DNA of 64,000 nucleotides. It comes from Arthrobacter sp. NicSoilB8. GTDB lineage: Bacteria; Actinomycetota; Actinomycetes; Actinomycetales; Micrococcaceae. The notes beneath the pieces are model-generated. The model made no database searches. It worked only from the letters and a program-made list of their open reading frames with translations, and was not told the DNA's origin. Shown piece after piece: positions 5,622-12,913 of this stretch. The stretch covers positions 2,914,001 through 2,978,000 of the forward strand of contig NZ_AP024655.1 of the NCBI RefSeq assembly GCF_019977355.1, written 5' to 3'. The translations under genes and the position numbers were made by a program. Numbering within the stretch: the stretch's first letter is position 1; each line of letters begins with the position of its first letter.

Positions 5622-6070
5622 TCATCGTCCGGCGTGCTGGCCGCCGTCGACGTGGAGGATTTCACCGGTAACGAACTCGGCTTCTTCGAGAAAGACGACG
5701 GCATGGACAATCTCGTCGATATCCCCCAAACGGCCCATAGGATGCAGCCCCGCAAGCTGCGCGTGAGTTTCAGCCAGGTGCATCGGGGTCTTGATGACAC
5801 CTGGGGATACGGAGTTGACCCGAATCCCGCGGCTTGCGTACTCGGTGGCAAGGGACTTCGTCGCCGAATTCAGCCCGCCCTTTGTCAGGGCGGCGAGCAT
5901 CGCCGGCACGTCTGTGCTCGGCTGGTCGGCCAGGGTGGTGGTGATGTTGATGATGTGTCCGGATCCCGCTTGTTCCATCAGAGCGACAGCCCTTTGGCTG
6001 ACATGGAAAAATCCGGTGAGATTGACCGCTACTGTGAGGCACCAGTGATAACGACTGTTTTCTCGCTCAT
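5622..6070 (-). pseudogene. Short-chain dehydrogenase/reductase with internal deletion
   Basis: Reading leftwards from ATG 6070 the frame gives MSEKTVVITGASQ and then a TAG stop: the start of an SDR Rossmann fold (TGxxxGxG region). The next frame immediately continues with NLTGFFHVSQRAVALMEQ, the active-site-loop half of an SDR, and runs on through IINITTTLADQ, a segment aligned with YxxxK, and IRVNSVSPGVIKTPM to the normal C-terminus DGG at 5622. About 80-100 residues between the glycine motif and the NLTG helix are missing and the frame is shifted at the join near 6030. A shorter protein from ATG 5978 could still be made but would lack the cofactor site. It is also notable that the usual catalytic Tyr appears replaced (PAMLAALTKGG). 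Confidence 0.8.
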
Positions 6071-6193: not shown

Positions 6194-6901
6194 TCAGACC
6201 CGGGCGGCCAGATCGAGAACAGCCTTGGCTGCTGCCTCAGCCGATGCGGGATTCTGTCCGGTCACGAGGTTGCCGTCGACGACGACGAACGAACCCCAGG
6301 CGGGCCCGGATTCGAAGATCGCGCCATACTCGCGGAGGCGGGATTCCAGAAGCCACGGTGCCTTGTCGGCGAAGCCAACCTGGGATTCTTCCTCATCGAG
6401 AAACGCGGTGAGGCGCCGGCCCTTGAACAGCCACTGCCCGTCACGGGTGGCTGTGCTGAAGCTAGCGGGACCGTGGCACAGAGAGGCGACAACCTTAGTC
6501 GGGTCATCGAGCGTTGCCTCGAAAATCCGCTTGATGTCGGTGTTGGTCGACAGATCCTGCATGGGACCGTGTCCGCCAGGGACGAAGATGACGTCGTACT
6601 CGCCGGGATCGACCTCCTCGAGCGCGACGGCGGCAGCCAGGTTCTCCTTGGAGTCCGCGAGGTAGGCGCGGAATTCCTCGACTTTCTCGTTGTCGTTGTC
6701 GTTCGTCTCCGGCACCAGGCTGAACTCGTCCGCAACAGGGGTGACGGCGCCCGGCGTGGCGATGGTCACCTCCAGGCCCGCCTCCCGGAAGATGCGGTCG
6801 GGGACCACGAACTCCTCCGCCCAGAATCCGGTCGGATGCTTCGAGCCGTCCTTCAACTCCCAGAAGGTGGCTCCGGTGAGGACCAAGAGGACCTTTTTCA
6901 T
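6194..6901 (-). CDS. DJ-1/PfpI family protein (Hsp31/glyoxalase III-like)
   Basis: 235 residues. The class I glutamine-amidotransferase-like fold is shown by KKVLLVLTG, HPTGFWAEE (conserved Glu), DVIFVPGGHGPMQDL and the nucleophile elbow SLCHGPA with the catalytic Cys followed by His. The HPTGFWAEE segment and the late WLLES/FESG region are typical of Hsp31/YajL-like chaperone-glyoxalases, which turn methylglyoxal into lactate without cofactor. I chose ATG 6901 (MKKVLL) with GGAA upstream; a TTG at 6913 would add four residues. The gene faces the CGNR regulator across a 147-bp region that holds two matching palindromes, so it is probably under that control. Fits a carbonyl-stress role. Confidence 0.87.
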   Translation of the reverse strand: MKKVLLVLTGATFWELKDGSKHPTGFWAEEFVVPDRIFREAGLEVTIATPGAVTPVADEFSLVPETNDNDNEKVEEFRAYLADSKENLAAAVALEEVDPGEYDVIFVPGGHGPMQDLSTNTDIKRIFEATLDDPTKVVASLCHGPASFSTATRDGQWLFKGRRLTAFLDEEESQVGFADKAPWLLESRLREYGAIFESGPAWGSFVVVDGNLVTGQNPASAEAAAKAVLDLAARV

Positions 6902-6987: not shown

Positions 6988-7008
6988 GTCACTGGTTGAA
7001 CAGGTGAC
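6988..7008 (+). promoter_or_regulatory. Operator-like palindrome A (GTCAC-N11-GTGAC) over a -35 box
   Basis: 21 bp with outer arms GTCAC/GTGAC and inner GTT/AAC around a central base; only two of ten pairs mismatch. A TTGAAC -35-like hexamer (6996-7001) lies inside it and a CATAAT -10-like hexamer follows at 7017-7022. Its centre is exactly 40 bp from that of palindrome B. The same pair recurs at 10663 and 10703. Confidence 0.65.
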
Positions 7009-7027
7009 GATCGTTGCATAATGGATC

Positions 7028-7048
7028 GTCACCTGTCAAACTGGTGAC
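7028..7048 (+). promoter_or_regulatory. Operator-like palindrome B, abutting the CGNR start codon
   Basis: 21 bp with arms GTCACC/GGTGAC and N9 between. It ends one base before ATG 7049, so a bound protein would block transcription start or the ribosome site. The arms of A and B also form a 13-bp inverted repeat with each other (ACAGGTGACGATC and its complement). Probable autoregulatory site of the CGNR protein (inference). Confidence 0.65.
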
Positions 7049-7612
7049 ATGAAACATTCATTCGTCTGCGGAAATCCGGCCCTCGACTTCGCCGCAACAG
7101 TTCGCTCACGGCTCGGGACGCCGCTCGAAATGCTTTCGTCGCCTGAGAGCCTGGATGACTGGTTCCGTGAATCCGGCATTATCGACGGGGACACAAAATG
7201 CCAGCGGGCCGACCTCGACGAGGCCATCGTGATGCGGGAGGCCATCTACTCACTCGTTCACGCCAGAGTTGATGGGGGTGACTATGACAGCGACGCCCTC
7301 TCCATCGTGAACGATGCCGCCCGCACGCCGCCCGTCGTTCAGCAGCTCACGCCCCTTGGCCGGCGGACCGACGGAACCCCGGCCCAGGCGCTATCGAGCG
7401 TGGCACGTCACGCTATCGAGGTCCTCAGCGGGTCCGATGCGCCGCTGCTCAAGGAGTGTGCGAACCATGAGTGCACCCGGGTCTACATTGACCGGTCCCG
7501 TGGCGCGCGCCGGGAGTGGTGTGCCATGGACCCCTGCGGCAACAAGATGAAGGCTGCCGCCTACCGGGCTCGCAAGAGGGCGGACAAACCGGCTTCGGTA
7601 GCCGGAAAATAG
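7049..7612 (+). CDS. CGNR zinc-finger regulator with ABATE domain
   Basis: 187 residues. The N-terminal ABATE region (FVCGNPALDFAATV, DLDEAIVMREAIYSLVHA) is followed by a C-terminal CGNR zinc finger: Cys at KECANHECTRVYID, WCAMDPCGNKMKA, then the basic helix AAYRARKRA. The family consists of stress-responsive DNA-binding proteins; the ABATE part is thought to sense a ligand. The start codon directly abuts operator B, and the same 21-bp palindromes precede the 10761-12913 gene set, so I infer that this protein represses itself and that set, and perhaps the divergent DJ-1-type gene. Ligand unknown, but the neighbours point to reactive electrophiles. No canonical ribosome site; GGTG of the operator is the nearest purine tract. 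Confidence 0.85.
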   Translation: MKHSFVCGNPALDFAATVRSRLGTPLEMLSSPESLDDWFRESGIIDGDTKCQRADLDEAIVMREAIYSLVHARVDGGDYDSDALSIVNDAARTPPVVQQLTPLGRRTDGTPAQALSSVARHAIEVLSGSDAPLLKECANHECTRVYIDRSRGARREWCAMDPCGNKMKAAAYRARKRADKPASVAGK

Positions 7613-7650
7613 CCGCCGCGCTTCGGCGGACGGTGCGCTGAAGCCTGCGC

Positions 7651-8688
7651 TCAGGTGGCGAGCCGGGCAAGGATGGATCGGGCCGAGCCGACCATGGAGC
7701 GGTTAAACCCTGTGCCCGCCCAGAGGTTAACACGGTGGGAATCACCGGCCCCGGCTGCTGCGGCCCGCAGGGGACGGGTCAGGTGATGAATTTCCGGATA
7801 TCCGAAGGGCGCCTCGGGGTCGTGCTGCCGCATGAAGTCGTTGTACAGACCCCGCGCATATCTGCCGGAGAAGGCCTTGGTGACGGCCGTCGTCGTAAAT
7901 TGACCAGAGGAAAGTGCGGCCCGGTGCACGGCTCCGGTGCCAGCTTCGTCTGCCCTGAGGAAGGCGGTGCCGGCCTGGACTGCCACGGCACCCCGCGAAA
8001 GCGCAGCCCGCGTATCTGCCCCCGTGACAATGCCACCTGCTGCAATCAACGGGATCTCCAGGCTGGACAAATCGTTGAGCAGCACGTGCAGGGGGGTGAC
8101 TCCTGCGGGCGCGGTTGGATCGAAAGTACCCCTGTGCCCGCCAGCTTCAGGTCCCTGGACGCAGAGCATGTCCGCCCCGGCGGCCATCGCCAGCTTCGCT
8201 TCGGCACGCGAGGTGACCGTCACGGTCACTGACACCCCCCGTTCCTGCAACGCGGTGATGATGCCCGCCTCCGGCACGTCGAAGGTAAACGACACGACGG
8301 CGGGGGCCAGCTCGTAGAGGACGTCGAGTTTGTTTTGCCAGTCGTCATCATCGTGTCTGGGATCGCCGAGGGTCACCTGCAGGCGGGATGCGTCGGAGGC
8401 GAGGGAATGTGCGTATTGCTCTAGGACGTCAGGCCGGATTATCGGGGGCTGGGGGACGAAGAGATTGACGCCGAACGGGGCGTCGGTGAGGTCCCTGACA
8501 GCCTTGATCTCGGCGCCCATACTGTCCGCCGTTTTATATCCCGCGGCCAGGAACCCCAGTCCTCCGGCGGAGCTCACGGCGGCCGCAAGCTGTGGGGTAG
8601 AGGGGCCGCCCGCCATTGGGGCTTGGATGACGGGCAGTGGCAGTGCGGTGATATCGAAGCGGGATTGATTCGTCGTGGACGTGTTCAT
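7651..8688 (-). CDS. Nitronate monooxygenase (NMO / 2-nitropropane dioxygenase family)
   Basis: 345 residues from ATG 8688, which has GAAGGGACC upstream. FMN-binding TIM barrel: LPVIQAPMAGG, AAVSSAGGLGFLAAGY, GADMLCVQGPEAGGHRG (flavin/phosphate segment with catalytic His), PLIAAGGIVTGADT and GAVAVQAGTAFL. NMOs oxidise alkyl nitronates such as propionate-3-nitronate; some relatives are enoyl reductases (FabK), but the VQGPEAGGHRG stretch fits class I NMO. Last gene of a minus-strand run HxlR - MFS - NMO with short gaps (95 and 52 bases), so it is probably induced with the pump by the same inducer. It ends 38 bases from the convergent CGNR gene. Confidence 0.87.
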   Translation of the reverse strand: MNTSTTNQSRFDITALPLPVIQAPMAGGPSTPQLAAAVSSAGGLGFLAAGYKTADSMGAEIKAVRDLTDAPFGVNLFVPQPPIIRPDVLEQYAHSLASDASRLQVTLGDPRHDDDDWQNKLDVLYELAPAVVSFTFDVPEAGIITALQERGVSVTVTVTSRAEAKLAMAAGADMLCVQGPEAGGHRGTFDPTAPAGVTPLHVLLNDLSSLEIPLIAAGGIVTGADTRAALSRGAVAVQAGTAFLRADEAGTGAVHRAALSSGQFTTTAVTKAFSGRYARGLYNDFMRQHDPEAPFGYPEIHHLTRPLRAAAAGAGDSHRVNLWAGTGFNRSMVGSARSILARLAT

Positions 8689-8740
8689 GATGCCGGTCCC
8701 TTCGTTACGTGTGCCGCAGATGGCAGTCTGAAATGTTCCT

Positions 8741-9976
8741 TCACTTTTGCCGGCCGCGGCTGATGCGCATTTGAGCGACAAGGCTGACGAGTGCGAGGGC
8801 GACGGTCGCGCCCCCATATCCGACGACCGTCGGCAGGAGGCCCAGCGGAGCGGCCAACTGGCCCGCGATGATGACGGGCAGGCCGAACGCGATGTAGGCG
8901 ACGACGTAAATGGCTGCGACGATGCCCGCCCTCTGTTGAGGGACGGCCAGCGGCATGATCAGACGCAGCGAGGCGGAGAACGCAGCGCCGAAGCCGATGC
9001 CCATGACGACCAGCCCGGCGATCATGAGCGCGAGGCTTCCCGACAGCACGGCGGCCACGATGACGACGGTCCCGGCGATGGATGAGTAAATTCCGGTTGT
9101 CATTCCGCGCCGGGGGCTGAACCGGGCGAAAGCGACTCCCACCACGGCCGACGTCGCCGGCGCGATGAAGCCGCTGAGGCCGTTGACCAGTCCGCTGTTG
9201 AGGTGGAAGACACTGCGTACGATGGTCGGCGCGAGCCCGAGGGACAGGCCCGCGAGCATCCAGACGGCGGCAATCACGGGGGCGGCGGCGGCGAATTCCT
9301 TGCTGGCGGCCGGCGGAACAAAGACGCGCGGAATCAGGGAACGCAACGCTCCGGGTGTGCGGGTCACACTCTCAGGCGAGAGCGCGACAACGACAATTCC
9401 CAGGACCGTCACGATCGTGAGGACGGTGAAGATGATCGTGTTCGCCTCGGGTGTGAACTGGATGGCGAACCCGGCAAGCAATGCGCCGACAGCGAGTCCT
9501 GCGGTCATGCCGACGCTGCCAAGAATGCTGCCCAGCCTTTTCCGGTTCGGCGGGGCGAGTTCGGCGAGGGTGGCCGTGAATGCGCTGGTGGCGGCGCCGG
9601 TGGCGAGGCCCTGCACGACGCGGGCGGCAATCACCCACCCGATGTCCGGGGCCACGAGGAACATCAGGGTCGCCGCGAGCTGAACGAGGAGTGCTCCGAT
9701 CAGCACGGGCCGCCGGCCGACATGGTCGGATAGTGAACCGACAGTCAGCATGGCGGCAAGGAAACCGATCGCGTAGACAGCGAACGCCAGGGTCAGGACC
9801 GCGGCGGGAAAATGCCATTGCTCCTGGTAGAAGGGAAGCAGGGGCGTCGGTGCGCCCGCCGCCAGGTACAGGCTGATGAAGGTGACCGCGTTCCCCGCGA
9901 AGGCTGCCCCGGAAGGAAGCCTGGAGCGACGGCGCGCGGCCGGTGTACGAGTTTCGAGGGATGCAATAGCTGACAT
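8741..9976 (-). CDS. MFS transporter, drug-efflux type
   Basis: 411 residues, about 12 transmembrane segments. Motif A-like SDHVGRRPVLIG follows TM2-3, and RVVQGLATGAATSAF in TM4-5 resembles motifs B/C of drug:H+ antiporters. The first segment begins after a basic leader (TPAARRRSRLPSG). I chose ATG 9976 (MSAIASLETR), which gives the usual MFS length; a longer frame upstream has no family support and the ribosome site is weak. It sits between the HxlR repressor and the nitronate monooxygenase on one transcript, suggesting export of the toxic compound or its product (inference). Substrate cannot be predicted. Confidence 0.88.
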   Translation of the reverse strand: MSAIASLETRTPAARRRSRLPSGAAFAGNAVTFISLYLAAGAPTPLLPFYQEQWHFPAAVLTLAFAVYAIGFLAAMLTVGSLSDHVGRRPVLIGALLVQLAATLMFLVAPDIGWVIAARVVQGLATGAATSAFTATLAELAPPNRKRLGSILGSVGMTAGLAVGALLAGFAIQFTPEANTIIFTVLTIVTVLGIVVVALSPESVTRTPGALRSLIPRVFVPPAASKEFAAAAPVIAAVWMLAGLSLGLAPTIVRSVFHLNSGLVNGLSGFIAPATSAVVGVAFARFSPRRGMTTGIYSSIAGTVVIVAAVLSGSLALMIAGLVVMGIGFGAAFSASLRLIMPLAVPQQRAGIVAAIYVVAYIAFGLPVIIAGQLAAPLGLLPTVVGYGGATVALALVSLVAQMRISRGRQK

Positions 9977-10071
9977 TTGAGGACTTCTGTTCTGCCGGCC
10001 AACGATCCTCCGGCAACGTGGTTGATTTGTGTGCTGAGCTCCGGCGTCCGGGGCAGCGCGGCGCTGACTGG

Positions 10072-10569
10072 TCAGGCGCGCCCTTGCTCGATCCAGTCGC
10101 CGTTTGCGGCGATTTCGAGATCGTCGAACCCGAGTTGCGCATCCGATTCGGCATGGGGTCCGATGACGACTGGAATGTCCGTGCCGCGTTTCACGAGCCG
10201 CAGCGGGCCACCGTCGTCGGACTGCAAATACCGGTTGCCCCACTGCATCAGCGCGAACACCGCGGGCATGAGATCTGCACCCTTCGGCGTCAGGACATAT
10301 TCATAGCGCTTCCGCTTGCCCTCTTCCTGGTAGGGACGCTTTTCGAAGAGGCCAAGATCCGTAAGCTGCTTGAGCCGGGCCGAAACTATGGCATCCGTGC
10401 CTTTTGTCCGTCGCACGAAGTCGTCGAATCGGGTGGTGCCGTAGATGGCCTCCCGCAGGATGAGCATGGATGACCGCGTACCGATGATCTCCATCGTCAT
10501 GGCGATGGAGCAGTTCTCCATCCGCCAGGCGCCCCGGTCCTCGAGCGCGCCTTTGAGTTTGATTGACAT
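10072..10569 (-). CDS. HxlR family transcriptional regulator
   Basis: 165 residues. The winged-helix HxlR domain is clear: CSIAMTMEIIGTRSSMLILR, TTRFDDFVRRTKGTDAIVS (recognition region), RLKQLTDLGLFEKRPY and KRYEYVLTPKGADLMP. The N-terminal Cys20 corresponds in position to the redox or alkylation-sensing Cys of YodB/HypR-type members. A C-terminal extension of ~45 residues follows. It heads the minus-strand unit with the MFS pump and nitronate monooxygenase, and inverted repeats overlap its own promoter, so autorepression relieved by electrophiles is likely. The effector is not known. Confidence 0.9.
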   Translation of the reverse strand: MSIKLKGALEDRGAWRMENCSIAMTMEIIGTRSSMLILREAIYGTTRFDDFVRRTKGTDAIVSARLKQLTDLGLFEKRPYQEEGKRKRYEYVLTPKGADLMPAVFALMQWGNRYLQSDDGGPLRLVKRGTDIPVVIGPHAESDAQLGFDDLEIAANGDWIEQGRA

Positions 10570-10603
10570 AGAGCCACCTGCCTGACTTCCAGTTGTAGTA
10601 GCT

Positions 10604-10639
10604 AGAGCGTAGCTTGCTGACTACCAAAATGTCAAGCTA
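10604..10639 (-). promoter_or_regulatory. Promoter and inverted-repeat operator of the HxlR unit
   Basis: On the minus strand TTGACA (10630-10635) and TACGCT (10606-10611) are 18 bp apart. The arms TAGCTTG (10610-10616) and CAAGCTA (10633-10639) span this promoter, and AGCTA-N5-TAGCT (10600-10614) overlaps the -10 box. This is a good fit to a repressor site for the adjacent HxlR protein. Confidence 0.6.
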
Positions 10640-10662
10640 GCTGCCTGGGTGCCCTAAGGCGA

Positions 10663-10683
10663 ATCACCTCCTTGACAGGTGAC
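10663..10683 (+). promoter_or_regulatory. Operator-like palindrome D over a TTGACA -35 box
   Basis: 21 bp, ATCACCT-N7-AGGTGAC. It contains the -35 hexamer TTGACA (10672-10677), followed 18 bp later by CAGTAT (10696-10701). Its centre is 40 bp from palindrome C, the same spacing as the pair before the CGNR gene. Confidence 0.6.
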
Positions 10684-10702
10684 GCAATCGCATGCCAGTA
10701 TC

Positions 10703-10723
10703 GTTACCAGTTGAACCGGTGAC
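10703..10723 (+). promoter_or_regulatory. Operator-like palindrome C just downstream of the -10 box
   Basis: 21 bp, GTTACC-N9-GGTGAC with inner GTTGAAC. It begins one base after the CAGTAT -10 hexamer, so it covers the start site of transcription for the 10761-12913 genes. Same architecture as palindrome B. Confidence 0.65.
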
Positions 10724-10760
10724 GCGGCTAGACCCCCACTACCGACCGAAAGGAACCCCC

Positions 10761-10937
10761 ATGGGACAGCCCATCACCGAGGTACTGACAGACGCACTAA
10801 AGAAGGCCGCGACCGCCCACGGCATCTACGAAACCGAAGTCCTGGGCGGGGTGTACGACACCGAATGGCCGCAGTGGTACGCGGAACACATGACCCGCAC
10901 GCTCGCCGAAGCAGGCCACCGGCTCACCGCCGGCTAG
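10761..10937 (+). CDS. Small protein of unknown function (58 aa), first gene of the CGNR-type operon
   Basis: 58 residues from ATG 10761, which has AAAGGA eight bases upstream. The sequence is acidic and helical at first (EVLTDALKKAATAHGIYE) and ends in a compact aromatic segment (GGVYDTEWPQWYAEHMTRTL). There is no signal peptide, membrane segment or metal-binding cysteines. The conserved-looking GG-Y-WP-WYA-HM pattern suggests a real family, but I cannot name it. It is the first gene after the two palindromes at 10663 and 10703, followed 87 bases later by the VOC gene, so it is presumably made in the same stress response. Confidence 0.65.
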   Translation: MGQPITEVLTDALKKAATAHGIYETEVLGGVYDTEWPQWYAEHMTRTLAEAGHRLTAG

Positions 10938-11024: not shown

Positions 11025-11468
11025 ATGGATTTGAAGCTTGAAGTACTGTTCGTTCCCGTTTCGGACGTCGACCGGGCCAAGGCCTTCTACGAATCGCTCG
11101 GATTCCGCCTCGATATCGACTACATCGCAAGCGACGAGTACCGGGTGGCGCAGCTGACCCCTCCCGGGTCGGAAGCATCCATCATCATCGGCAAGAGCAT
11201 CACCGCTGCCACACCCGGGTCGCTCCAGAATCAGATTTTCGCCGTGAAGGATATCCTCGCCGCCCGGGCCGACCTTGTGGAAAAGGGCGTTGACGTCTCC
11301 GAGGTATTCCACTACGCGAAGGGATTCATCTTCCACCGCGACAACCAGCACCGCGTTGCCGGACCACACCCCGAACGCGCCGATTACCAGTCCTTTGCCA
11401 CCTTCAGCGACCCGGACGGCAACACCTGGTCTCTTCAGGAAATCAACACCCGGGCGCCCGGGCGATGA
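11025..11468 (+). CDS. VOC (glyoxalase/bleomycin-resistance/dioxygenase) family protein
   Basis: 147 residues from ATG 11025 with AAAGGA upstream. The two beta-alpha-beta3 modules of the VOC fold are visible: VLFVPVSDVDRAKAFYESLG at the start of the first and FATFSDPDGNTWSLQEI at the end of the second, with the usual metal-ligand Glu (SLQEI). Many VOC proteins conjugate or isomerise reactive carbonyls or bind drugs. The stop overlaps the start of the MerA-like gene by four bases (ATGA), so they are translationally coupled. Product and substrate are unknown; the context suggests detoxification of an electrophile. Confidence 0.88.
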   Translation: MDLKLEVLFVPVSDVDRAKAFYESLGFRLDIDYIASDEYRVAQLTPPGSEASIIIGKSITAATPGSLQNQIFAVKDILAARADLVEKGVDVSEVFHYAKGFIFHRDNQHRVAGPHPERADYQSFATFSDPDGNTWSLQEINTRAPGR

Positions 11469-12913
11469 GCACCCCAAGCGGTTCAACAGACGGTTCAGCA
11501 GAATATGACCTGATCGTGCTCGGCGGCGGTGCCGTGGGCGAGAACATCGCCGACCGCGCAGTCCAGGGCGGCCTGACCGCGGTGATTGTCGAAGGCGAGC
11601 TCGTCGGGGGCGAGTGCTCTTACTGGGCATGCATGCCCTCAAAGGCGCTGCTGCGCTCCGCCCAGGTGCTGCGCGCGGCCCGTCGGGTTCCCGGGGCCGC
11701 GCAGGCCGTGACCGGTCAACTCGACGTGCAAGCCGTGCTGGCTCGCCGGGACTCATTCGCCAGTAACTGGTCCGACGGCGGGCAGGTGAAGTGGCTCGAA
11801 AGCGCCGGCATTGCGCTGGTGCGCGGTCACGGCCGGCTCACCGGCACAAAGGAAGTCACCGTCACGGGCCCGGACGGTTCGACGACGGTGCTCACCGCCC
11901 GCCAGGCCGTGTCCATCACGACGGGATCAGATGCCCTCCTTCCCGACATCGACGGGCTGGCTGGTGCCCGGCCGTGGACGAGCCGGGAGGCTACCAGCAT
12001 CAAGGCTGTTCCTGAAAGCCTGGCGATCATTGGCGGCGGCGTAGTTGCCACCGAGATGGCGACGGCCTTCGCCGCTTTTGGGACGGCGGTAACCCTTGTC
12101 TCCCGCAGCGGGCTGCTCTCAGGCATGGAGCGCTTCGCCGGCGATCTGGTCGCGGACGCCCTTCGCGGCCAAGGTGTCACCGTAATGCTTGAGACGAAAA
12201 CCACCCGCGTTTCCCGCGACGAAAGCGGCGTCACCCTCGAAACCGGGGACGGGAGCTCGATCACCGCCCAGGAAGTCCTCGTGGCAACCGGCCGCACCCC
12301 CCGTACCCGGGACATCGGCCTCGATTCGATCGGCCTCACACCCGGGGCTTGGATTGAGACCGACGACACCATGCTGGTTCCGGGCTTTGACTGGCTCTAC
12401 GCGGCCGGCGACGTGACGAATCGGGCCCTTCTCACCCACCAGGGGAAGTACCAGGCCCGCGCGGCGGGTGATGTCATCGCCGCCCGGGCCACCGGAGCAC
12501 GGGTATCGGACGCGCCATGGGGAACCCATGTGGCCACCGCCGACCACGAGGCGGTGCCGCAGGTCACGTTTACCGACCCGGAGATTGCCTCCGTGGGCCT
12601 CACCGCCGCCGATGCGCGCAAGCGCGGCTTCGACATCCGGGTGGTCGACTACGAGATCGGGCACGTCGCCGGTGCCAGCGTGCGGGCCGACGGCTACACG
12701 GGCACCGCCCGGATGGTGGTCGACGAAACGCGAAAGGTCGTGCTCGGCGTGACCTTCGCCGGTCCGGACGTGAGCGAACTGCTGCACGCCGCGACAATCG
12801 CGGTGGTCTCAGAAGTCCCGATCGACCGCCTGTGGCATGCTGTTCCGGCCTACCCCACGGTCAACGAGGTCTGGCTGCGGCTCCTCGAAACCTACGGGCG
12901 GCCGGCCCGCTAG
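11465..12913 (+). CDS. Class I pyridine nucleotide-disulfide oxidoreductase (MerA/Lpd-like)
   Basis: 482 residues. FAD-binding [10 protein letters not shown] near residue 18, redox-active disulfide [15 protein letters not shown] (Cys pair spaced C-x5-C), NAD(P) Rossmann motif [12 protein letters not shown] (residues ~188-199), second FAD segment [15 protein letters not shown], and C-terminal dimerisation domain with [13 protein letters not shown] providing the catalytic His-Pro pair. It lacks the N-terminal HMA domain and the vicinal C-terminal cysteines of mercuric reductase, so reduction of Hg(II) is unlikely; quinone or disulfide reduction is more plausible. It overlaps the VOC gene by four bases and ends the palindrome-controlled operon. 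Confidence 0.9.

Follow-up and report, generated by a model that had tools for sequence, protein, structure and literature searches.

Described regulators nearest to the CGNR protein

Proteins that carry an ABATE domain followed by a CGNR zinc finger are common and have been termed putative regulators since a structure paper of 2009. According to the accessible part of its report, Jann_2411 (PDB 3h0n) is a likely dimer with zinc bound by four cysteines and a predicted role in DNA binding, and no DNA site, target or regulon is reported there (PMC2954205). The same two-domain build is found in a protein encoded within a 64,000-nucleotide stretch of the Arthrobacter sp. NicSoilB8 genome (contig NZ_AP024655.1, forward-strand positions 2,914,001 to 2,978,000), the whole of which is called the window here and is numbered from its first letter. 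Two promoter regions of the window, one in front of the CGNR gene and one in front of an operon for a 58-residue protein (p58), a VOC-family protein and a flavoprotein reductase, each hold a pair of 21-base-pair (bp) palindromes. As judged by sequence comparison, these palindromes are very probably operators of the CGNR protein, a predicted autorepressor that would also repress an oxidant- and electrophile-defence regulon. The operators, the promoter geometry and the regulon are proposed here, and they provide a first predicted binding code for a little-studied regulator family. A conserved operator makes the role of CGNR proteins as DNA-binding repressors directly testable and their regulons readable from genomes, while natural variants of the half-site offer material for how a treble-clef zinc finger reads DNA.

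The proposed circuit resembles autoregulated repressors of the TetR, MarR and LacI kind in its dimeric palindrome, its autoregulation, its operators on -35, -10 and start point, and its divergent target. Those repressors bind through a helix-turn-helix, whereas the CGNR protein has a treble-clef zinc finger after the ABATE domain; unlike theirs, its operator directly adjoins the start codon of a gene predicted to be leaderless. Similar targets (an RclA/MerA-like flavoprotein, MsrA, OsmC/Ohr, DJ-1 and VOC proteins) are found in regulons of the RclR, NemR, OhrR and HypR kind, which have a regulator of another family and another operator.

A first-pass annotation of this DNA had stated that no published operator for CGNR/ABATE proteins was known to it, and literature searches likewise showed none: no CGNR/ABATE operator or target appears in titles or abstracts among the papers listed, with subscription journals, preprints and supplements from DNA affinity purification sequencing or chromatin immunoprecipitation sequencing lying outside that scope. 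The motif letters occur in PMC7413915 within a primer table, as far as the available part of that paper goes, the other papers being judged by title or abstract. No CGNR protein is named in titles or abstracts of papers on hypochlorite, MsrA, Streptomyces, repressors or zinc fingers, among the matches listed.

The CGNR protein and the palindromes of the window

The gene and the four palindromes are as follows.

7049-7612, plus strand: ABATE + zf-CGNR protein, 187 amino acids, predicted repressor (Pfam)
6988-7008, unstranded: O1, GTCACTGGTTGAACAGGTGAC, 1 mismatch, its end 40 bp upstream of the CGNR start codon
7028-7048, unstranded: O2, GTCACCTGTCAAACTGGTGAC, 0 mismatches, directly adjoining the CGNR ATG
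10663-10683, unstranded: O3, ATCACCTCCTTGACAGGTGAC, 1 mismatch, containing a -35 TTGACA at 10672-10677
10703-10723, unstranded: O4, GTTACCAGTTGAACCGGTGAC, 1 mismatch, over the predicted transcription start of the p58 operon

The domain order, ABATE and then the CGNR zinc finger, is given by matches to PF07336 (94.9 bits, E 7.7e-27, gathering score 24.4) and PF11706 (62.3 bits, E 3.6e-17, gathering score 24), and no NCBIfam model matches at E ≤0.001. The predicted structure has a mean predicted local distance difference test (pLDDT) score of 83, and its sole PDB match at E ≤0.001 is 3h0n (E 3.1e-7, template-modelling score 0.63-0.64; next match E 0.63), which points to the Jann_2411 fold as the likely one. 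In alignment A1, made of 26 rows, the predicted zinc ligands C137, C142, C158 and C163 are invariant in 26 of 26 rows and are the only invariant cysteines; the helix motif is CGNK in the window protein and, apart from CGNM (L017) and CGAR (L076), either CGNK or CGNR elsewhere in the alignment.

A pattern scan found the four palindromes where the first-pass annotation had placed them, each fitting GTCACC-N9-GGTGAC with 1, 0, 1 and 1 mismatches, and the spacing within each pair (6988/7028 and 10663/10703) is 40 bp. Single sites of this kind are unremarkable: the window holds 96 matches at ≤3 mismatches against a shuffle mean of 51, and the 5.17-Mb genome holds 44 at ≤1 mismatch against 10 for a reversed control pattern. 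Single-site counts were dropped as evidence because of these 44 matches. The tighter form GTCACCNGTTNAACNGGTGAC, at ≤3 mismatches, gives five places in the genome, of which three are window sites, with two for the control.

Conservation within the genus

The protein search covered 206 genomes, and the search with a pair pattern (24 specified bases, ≤3 mismatches) covered 204 genomes of the genus. The paired layout, earlier described as hard to obtain by chance, recurs at 10 places in 4 of these 204 (G000, G131, G176 and G197), with 0 for the reversed control, so that the claim holds for pairs while single sites are common. The pair occurs in every genome whose CGNR orthologue has at least 80% identity, and in no other of the 204 (G131, 83%; G197, 83% and 82% in two copies; G176, 80%). 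Genome G022, whose match is at 69%, has a weaker pair, 39 bp apart with 2 + 2 mismatches; the next-best match is at 41%. Conservation in related genomes, set beforehand as a refutation test, was searched for in this way, and the palindromes proved conserved.

The distance of 40 bp applies to both window pairs and to all 10 genus places, where the pattern itself fixes it; as the exact rule first suggested, it fails, since spacing elsewhere is mostly 39-42 bp, with a partner at 37 bp in L228 and 38 bp between two Sphingomonas sites as outliers.

Two genomes carry more than one CGNR copy. In G197 the copies lie 3.2 kilobases (kb) apart on contig C72 (L054), the second with a pair at 42 bp. In G176 the full copy (L017) has a degenerate distal site, and a second, partial match at 67% identity, on the 161-kb contig C2, has an operator pair of its own. 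These extra copies suggest recent duplication or spread.

Conservation beyond the genus and the CGNR subfamily

Of 22 loci selected by protein, 20 come from outside Arthrobacter (from Streptomyces and its relatives); 19 of these have 52-63% identity and the twentieth is fragment L074. A palindrome with ≤2 mismatches stands at the CGNR start in 21 of the 22, L074 being the exception. Among the non-Arthrobacter loci, a distal site at 40 bp occurs in L062 only. The CGNR frame is broken in L062 (near 6000) and in L071 (near 6237), the operator in front being intact in both; the ATG next to the palindrome of L062 lies in a different frame from the matched region.

A looser pair pattern, with N18-21 between the sites, was run across 394 genomes of the class and gave 14 places in 12 of them, with a control of 0. 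Nine of these places lie ≤1.5 kb from a CGNR gene, four stand before regulon-type genes and one is near neither. Twelve are new loci, eight of which lie ≤1.5 kb from a CGNR gene (L076-L079, L081, L084-L086); the pair adjoins OsmC/Ohr and MsrA genes in L083, VOC and flavoprotein reductase genes in L087, a HAD hydrolase gene in L082 and none of these in L080.

Searching the same class genomes with the A1 profile separated 17 matches of at least 221 bits, in 16 genomes, from a next match at 187 bits, and the subfamily boundary was set at this gap after inspection. Eleven of the 12 pair genomes fall among the 16 subfamily genomes (Fisher 6.7e-17, relatedness ignored), against a background in which 108 of the 394 genomes hold a CGNR relative at E ≤1e-25. 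The subfamily is present in all 4 pair-bearing genomes of the genus and in 11 of the 12 of the class, which supports the earlier proposal of one repressor, probably the CGNR protein itself.

Sites of the form GTCACCNNNTTGACNGGTGAC, at ≤1 mismatch, number 58 in 18 of 19 subfamily genomes (control 1), a count that includes the CGNR genes' own sites, against two sites in 2 of 19 hand-picked genomes without the subfamily. Of the 19 subfamily genomes, 14 are pair-bearing, and four of the other five (G263, G395, G456, G222 and G293) have sites.

Promoter anatomy

The predicted promoter elements of the window are listed by coordinate.

7010-7015, minus strand: predicted DJ-1 -10, AACGAT, with TGC in front, aligned as the operon promoters
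7014-7019, plus strand: predicted CGNR -35, TTGCAT, 17 bp ahead of the -10
7034-7039, minus strand: predicted DJ-1 -35, TTGACA, inside O2
7037-7042, plus strand: predicted CGNR -10, CAAACT, inside O2, with the ATG at 7049
10696-10701, plus strand: predicted operon -10, CAGTAT, with TGC in front, aligned with CACTAT, CAATAT and AAATAT in relatives

A comparison of CGNR promoters comprised 42 sequences (41 distinct), from 39 subfamily members and the near relatives L110 and L113, with fragment L074 excluded. The palindromes were located beforehand by pattern, the start-codon and -35 features being unselected. In 41 of 41 distinct promoters the palindrome directly abuts the start codon (26 ATG, 15 GTG). 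TTG is present at -35 in 31 of them and at -36 in another seven, and every promoter has A at -11 and T at -7, beyond what palindrome symmetry needs. This fits a leaderless promoter of the form TTGnnn-17-CAnnnT-6-start codon with the operator on its -10.

In the window, O2 spans the predicted CGNR -10 and, on the minus strand, the predicted -35 of the divergent DJ-1 gene. Read on that strand it is a site of the target kind (TTGACA, AACGAT), so the pair before CGNR could serve DJ-1, and O1 would then lie over the predicted start point of the DJ-1 promoter. Counterparts of O1 occur at the same position in L054 and L055 (2 mismatches each) and 39 bp away in L018, while counterparts of O3 precede the same operon in L044, L047 and L050.

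Among 23 target promoters inspected, a pair is present in 12 and one site only in the other 11. TTGAC is built into one palindrome in most of the 23, with L073 (8930/8971) and L057 (3256) as exceptions, and the partner site, where present, is mostly 39-42 bp downstream, over the predicted start. The first-pass annotation had put the first site of each pair on a -35 box and the second just after the -10; this stands for the operon promoter and gives way at CGNR, where the leaderless reading is better conserved. Its suggestion that two dimers loop or meet found no support: looping is not needed, as a site over the -35 and another over the start point already account for the spacing.

Variant palindromes across the wider CGNR family

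From 150 profile matches listed, 90 CGNR genes were assembled (30 earlier loci and 60 fetched; four skipped). A scan that assumed no sequence found palindromes with 6-bp arms to peak at a gap of 9 (57 versus 18 in a coding control), the commonest arms being GTCACC (20), GTAACC (16), GTTACC (5) and GACACC (3). Perfect xxxACC-N9-GGTxxx sites precede 12 of 16 subfamily genes, 10 of 14 in the next group and 19 of 60 distant genes, against shuffled means of 0.04, 0.04 and 0.09 in the same order and a coding control of 0; when two of three outer pairs are allowed, the distant genes rise to 33 of 60 versus 1. With such perfect arms and gaps of 0-30, 49 sites fall at gap 9 and ≤1 at any other.

The outer triplet varies with the CGNR clade, also among paralogues of one genome: G395 has GTC, GAC and GGA, and G551, G293, G384, G387, G502 and G291 have GTC and GTA, some of these paralogue sites having one unpaired outer base. 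No finger residue that sets the triplet is claimed, the by-eye comparison being confounded by relatedness. Taken together, the co-occurrence of pair and subfamily, the 41 of 41 start-codon sites and the co-variation of the triplet with CGNR clade indicate one regulator, most likely CGNR, for both window promoters. What is read directly from the letters is the conservation of the palindrome, its place on predicted promoters and its co-variation with CGNR clades.

Plasmid records extend the comparison. A Nonomuraea plasmid locus has a site before the GTG at its match start. Outside Actinomycetota, 18 loci (several near-identical) were taken from 102 plasmid records with a CGNR relative; palindromes with at least 5 of 6 arm pairs and an AC/GT core occur in them at gaps of 19 (16 times), 18 (7), 9 (7), 22 (6) and 10 (4), mononucleotide shuffles of the same loci giving 0.55 for gap 9 and 0.55 for gap 19. 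All eight Enterobacterales loci have at least one N19 site and seven of them at least one arm of the GTAAC kind, the exception being L244 (AAAACC/ATAACC with GGTTAT). Deinococcus has GTAACT-N19-AGTTAC; Sphingomonas has GAAACC-N9-GGTTTC immediately 5' of the ATG, with a second site 41 bp off; Pararhizobium has GGAACT-N9-GGTTCC before the ATG. Two Rhizobium loci have GTAACG-N18, the Ensifer and L239 sites are weak, and among the 18 loci no palindrome was found in L236, L247 or L248, the start of the last being unannotated and guessed.

CGNR proteins of Actinomycetota, Pseudomonadota and Deinococcota probably share an operator logic: inverted GTnAC(C) half-sites with a clade-specific outer triplet (GTC, GTA, GTT, GAC, GGA or GAA), separated by a gap that is either 9 or roughly a helical turn longer (18-19) and frequently placed on the gene's own promoter. 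If so, triplet differences would insulate parallel circuits of paralogues within one genome, and the regulons of this orphan family would be predictable from sequence.

The same plasmid loci share some gene arrangements. In the eight Enterobacterales loci (L235, L237, L238, L241, L243, L244, L245 and L249) CGNR and an alpha/beta hydrolase gene are transcribed divergently, and five of them (L237, L238, L243, L244 and L245) have two N18-19 sites 55 bp apart. In four rhizobial loci (L233, L239, L246 and L247) CGNR is divergent from an EamA-family transporter gene, and L233 and L246 have a GTAACG-N18-CGTTAC palindrome at that place.

Genes behind the sites

The window genes predicted to be regulated, besides CGNR, are these.

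6194-6901, minus strand: DJ-1/PfpI family protein, predicted regulon member, divergent from CGNR (PF01965)
10761-10937, plus strand: p58, 58-residue protein, first gene of the operon, inside open reading frame 10692-10937
11025-11468, plus strand: VOC/glyoxalase-family protein (PF00903)
11465-12913, plus strand: MerA/RclA-like flavoprotein disulfide reductase (PF07992, PF02852)

The divergent arrangement of DJ-1 and CGNR is also present in L054. No Pfam family matches p58, which has relatives in L044, L047, L055 and L076. VOC genes lie behind paired sites in L067, L068, L069, L073 and L056. For the flavoprotein, the best NCBIfam models are lipoamide_DH and MerA, its score being below the curated cut-off in all 25 models listed, out of 40.

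Across genomes, the genes behind sites encode VOC proteins, flavoprotein reductase, DJ-1, p58, small proteins of about 59 residues, MsrA (PF01625) and OsmC/Ohr (PF02566), and further Oxidored_molyb (PF00174), alpha/beta hydrolase, HAD, GMC and, by eye, quinone-reductase-like proteins. In L077, L078, L079 and L084 a HAD gene, assigned by eye from its likeness to that of L082, is divergent from CGNR. Detoxification and repair are represented among the targets, yet hydrolase, HAD, GMC and small uncharacterised proteins stand beside them. The proteins of about 59 residues recur behind sites in Streptomyces (L068:9977-10156, L069, L070, L071, L066, L058, L061 and L073), share a motif like RFxKLPERIRxEDMVEE and appear unrelated to p58 of the window, both judged by eye; the two checked, from L068 and L058, have no Pfam match. 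Elsewhere, a CGNR gene near mod genes, bp3097, is listed in a table of genes changed under putative cysteine starvation, in the accessible part of PMC9976334, which might point to a connection with sulfur or molybdate.

Proposed mechanism

One CGNR dimer would occupy each 21-bp palindrome, each GTCACC half-site taking one zinc finger. At the CGNR gene the protein would cover the -10 and start codon of the leaderless promoter and so repress itself. At targets, one site would lie over the -35, with TTGAC inside the palindrome, and a second, where present, over the start point; with sites at both places, RNA polymerase would be blocked twice. Of the window pairs, the one before CGNR would serve the divergent DJ-1 gene and the other the p58-VOC-flavoprotein operon. 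The signal is the least certain step: an oxidant or electrophile, perhaps acting on the four zinc cysteines, may disable CGNR, or the ABATE domain may instead respond to a ligand. Release of CGNR would then allow expression of the VOC, flavoprotein reductase, DJ-1, MsrA, OsmC/Ohr, molybdopterin oxidoreductase and quinone-reductase-like genes.

Weighing the operator assignment

Several observations weigh against CGNR as the repressor bound at these sites. The zinc-finger part of the model is weak, with pLDDT block means of 52-71 from residue 151. The Fisher value is overstated because genomes and rows are related, and 8 of the 26 A1 rows were selected by motif, so that independence from it is lost for 8 of the 16 subfamily genomes; the other eight (the Arthrobacter genome of the window and seven more, of which G277 is the same record as L072, already in A1) all have a site at the CGNR start with ≤2 mismatches. 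Five of the 16 subfamily genomes lack a strict pair, and G299 has a pair (L080) with no CGNR match at E ≤1e-25. Conversely, G263 has the subfamily with no TTGAC-type site at ≤1 mismatch, while nine of the 10 sites of G574 are partnerless and chance-like and were excluded as targets. Only a single site is present in the 11 unpaired promoters among the 23 inspected, and L018, L054 (6001), L055 and L062 have no clear divergent target despite a distal site. Even at two of three outer pairs, 28 of the 90 CGNR genes have no gap-9 site, the subfamily member L105 (2 mismatches) among them; some of these genes may have other operators.

The same protein might act at these sites as an activator, or as activator and repressor at once, with O1 (about -51 of CGNR) recruiting polymerase. 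O1 stands immediately 5' of the leaderless promoter's -35, which would suit this, as would -10 elements far from consensus (CANNNT) and the distal site found also at the more distant CGNR genes L077, L078, L079 and L084. It is nevertheless unlikely: O2, which covers the -10 and adjoins the start codon, is the site that stays constant, 18 of 19 checked non-Arthrobacter protein-selected loci lack a distal site (≤3 mismatches), and target sites over the -35 and start form a layout typical of repression.

Binding by another regulator, with CGNR as merely one target, is improbable. HxlR-family proteins are often redox sensors, and the HxlR protein encoded at 10072-10569 is divergent from the operon, adjoins O3/O4 and keeps its place next to the operon in L044, L047 and L055. 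A relative of it, however, occurs in only 1 of the 20 non-Arthrobacter protein-selected loci (L073, 38%), against a palindrome at CGNR in 19 of 20, and on this count it was rejected as the regulator. The palindrome also changes with the CGNR clade, even inside one genome, which an unlinked regulator would not explain.

That the sites act as RNA in the 5' leader, as a 6-bp stem with a 9-base loop, is very improbable. The inverted repeats could fold and O4 is probably transcribed, but O2 and O3 overlap predicted -35 or -10 elements and would for the most part not be transcribed toward their gene; sites are also found in either orientation, and other taxa have N19 spacing. Functionless palindromes kept by descent are scarcely credible, for although single sites are frequent in this GC-rich genome, as the counts given above attest, flanking sequence differs strongly from genus to genus, the palindrome is retained at an unchanged distance from the start codon, and control counts are near 0 in the genus, class and wider-family scans.

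Neighbouring genes

Between the two operator pairs (7651-10569), the minus strand encodes a nitronate monooxygenase, an MFS transporter and the HxlR regulator; the window pattern scan found no site at ≤1 mismatch among these genes, and HxlR may have a small circuit of its own. Past DJ-1, the minus strand continues with a truncated SDR gene and then a tautomerase gene. The SDR gene (5622-5978, minus strand) is N-terminally truncated, its 118-residue product being covered by Pfam over the C-terminal part only, and its counterpart in L054 has 236 residues.

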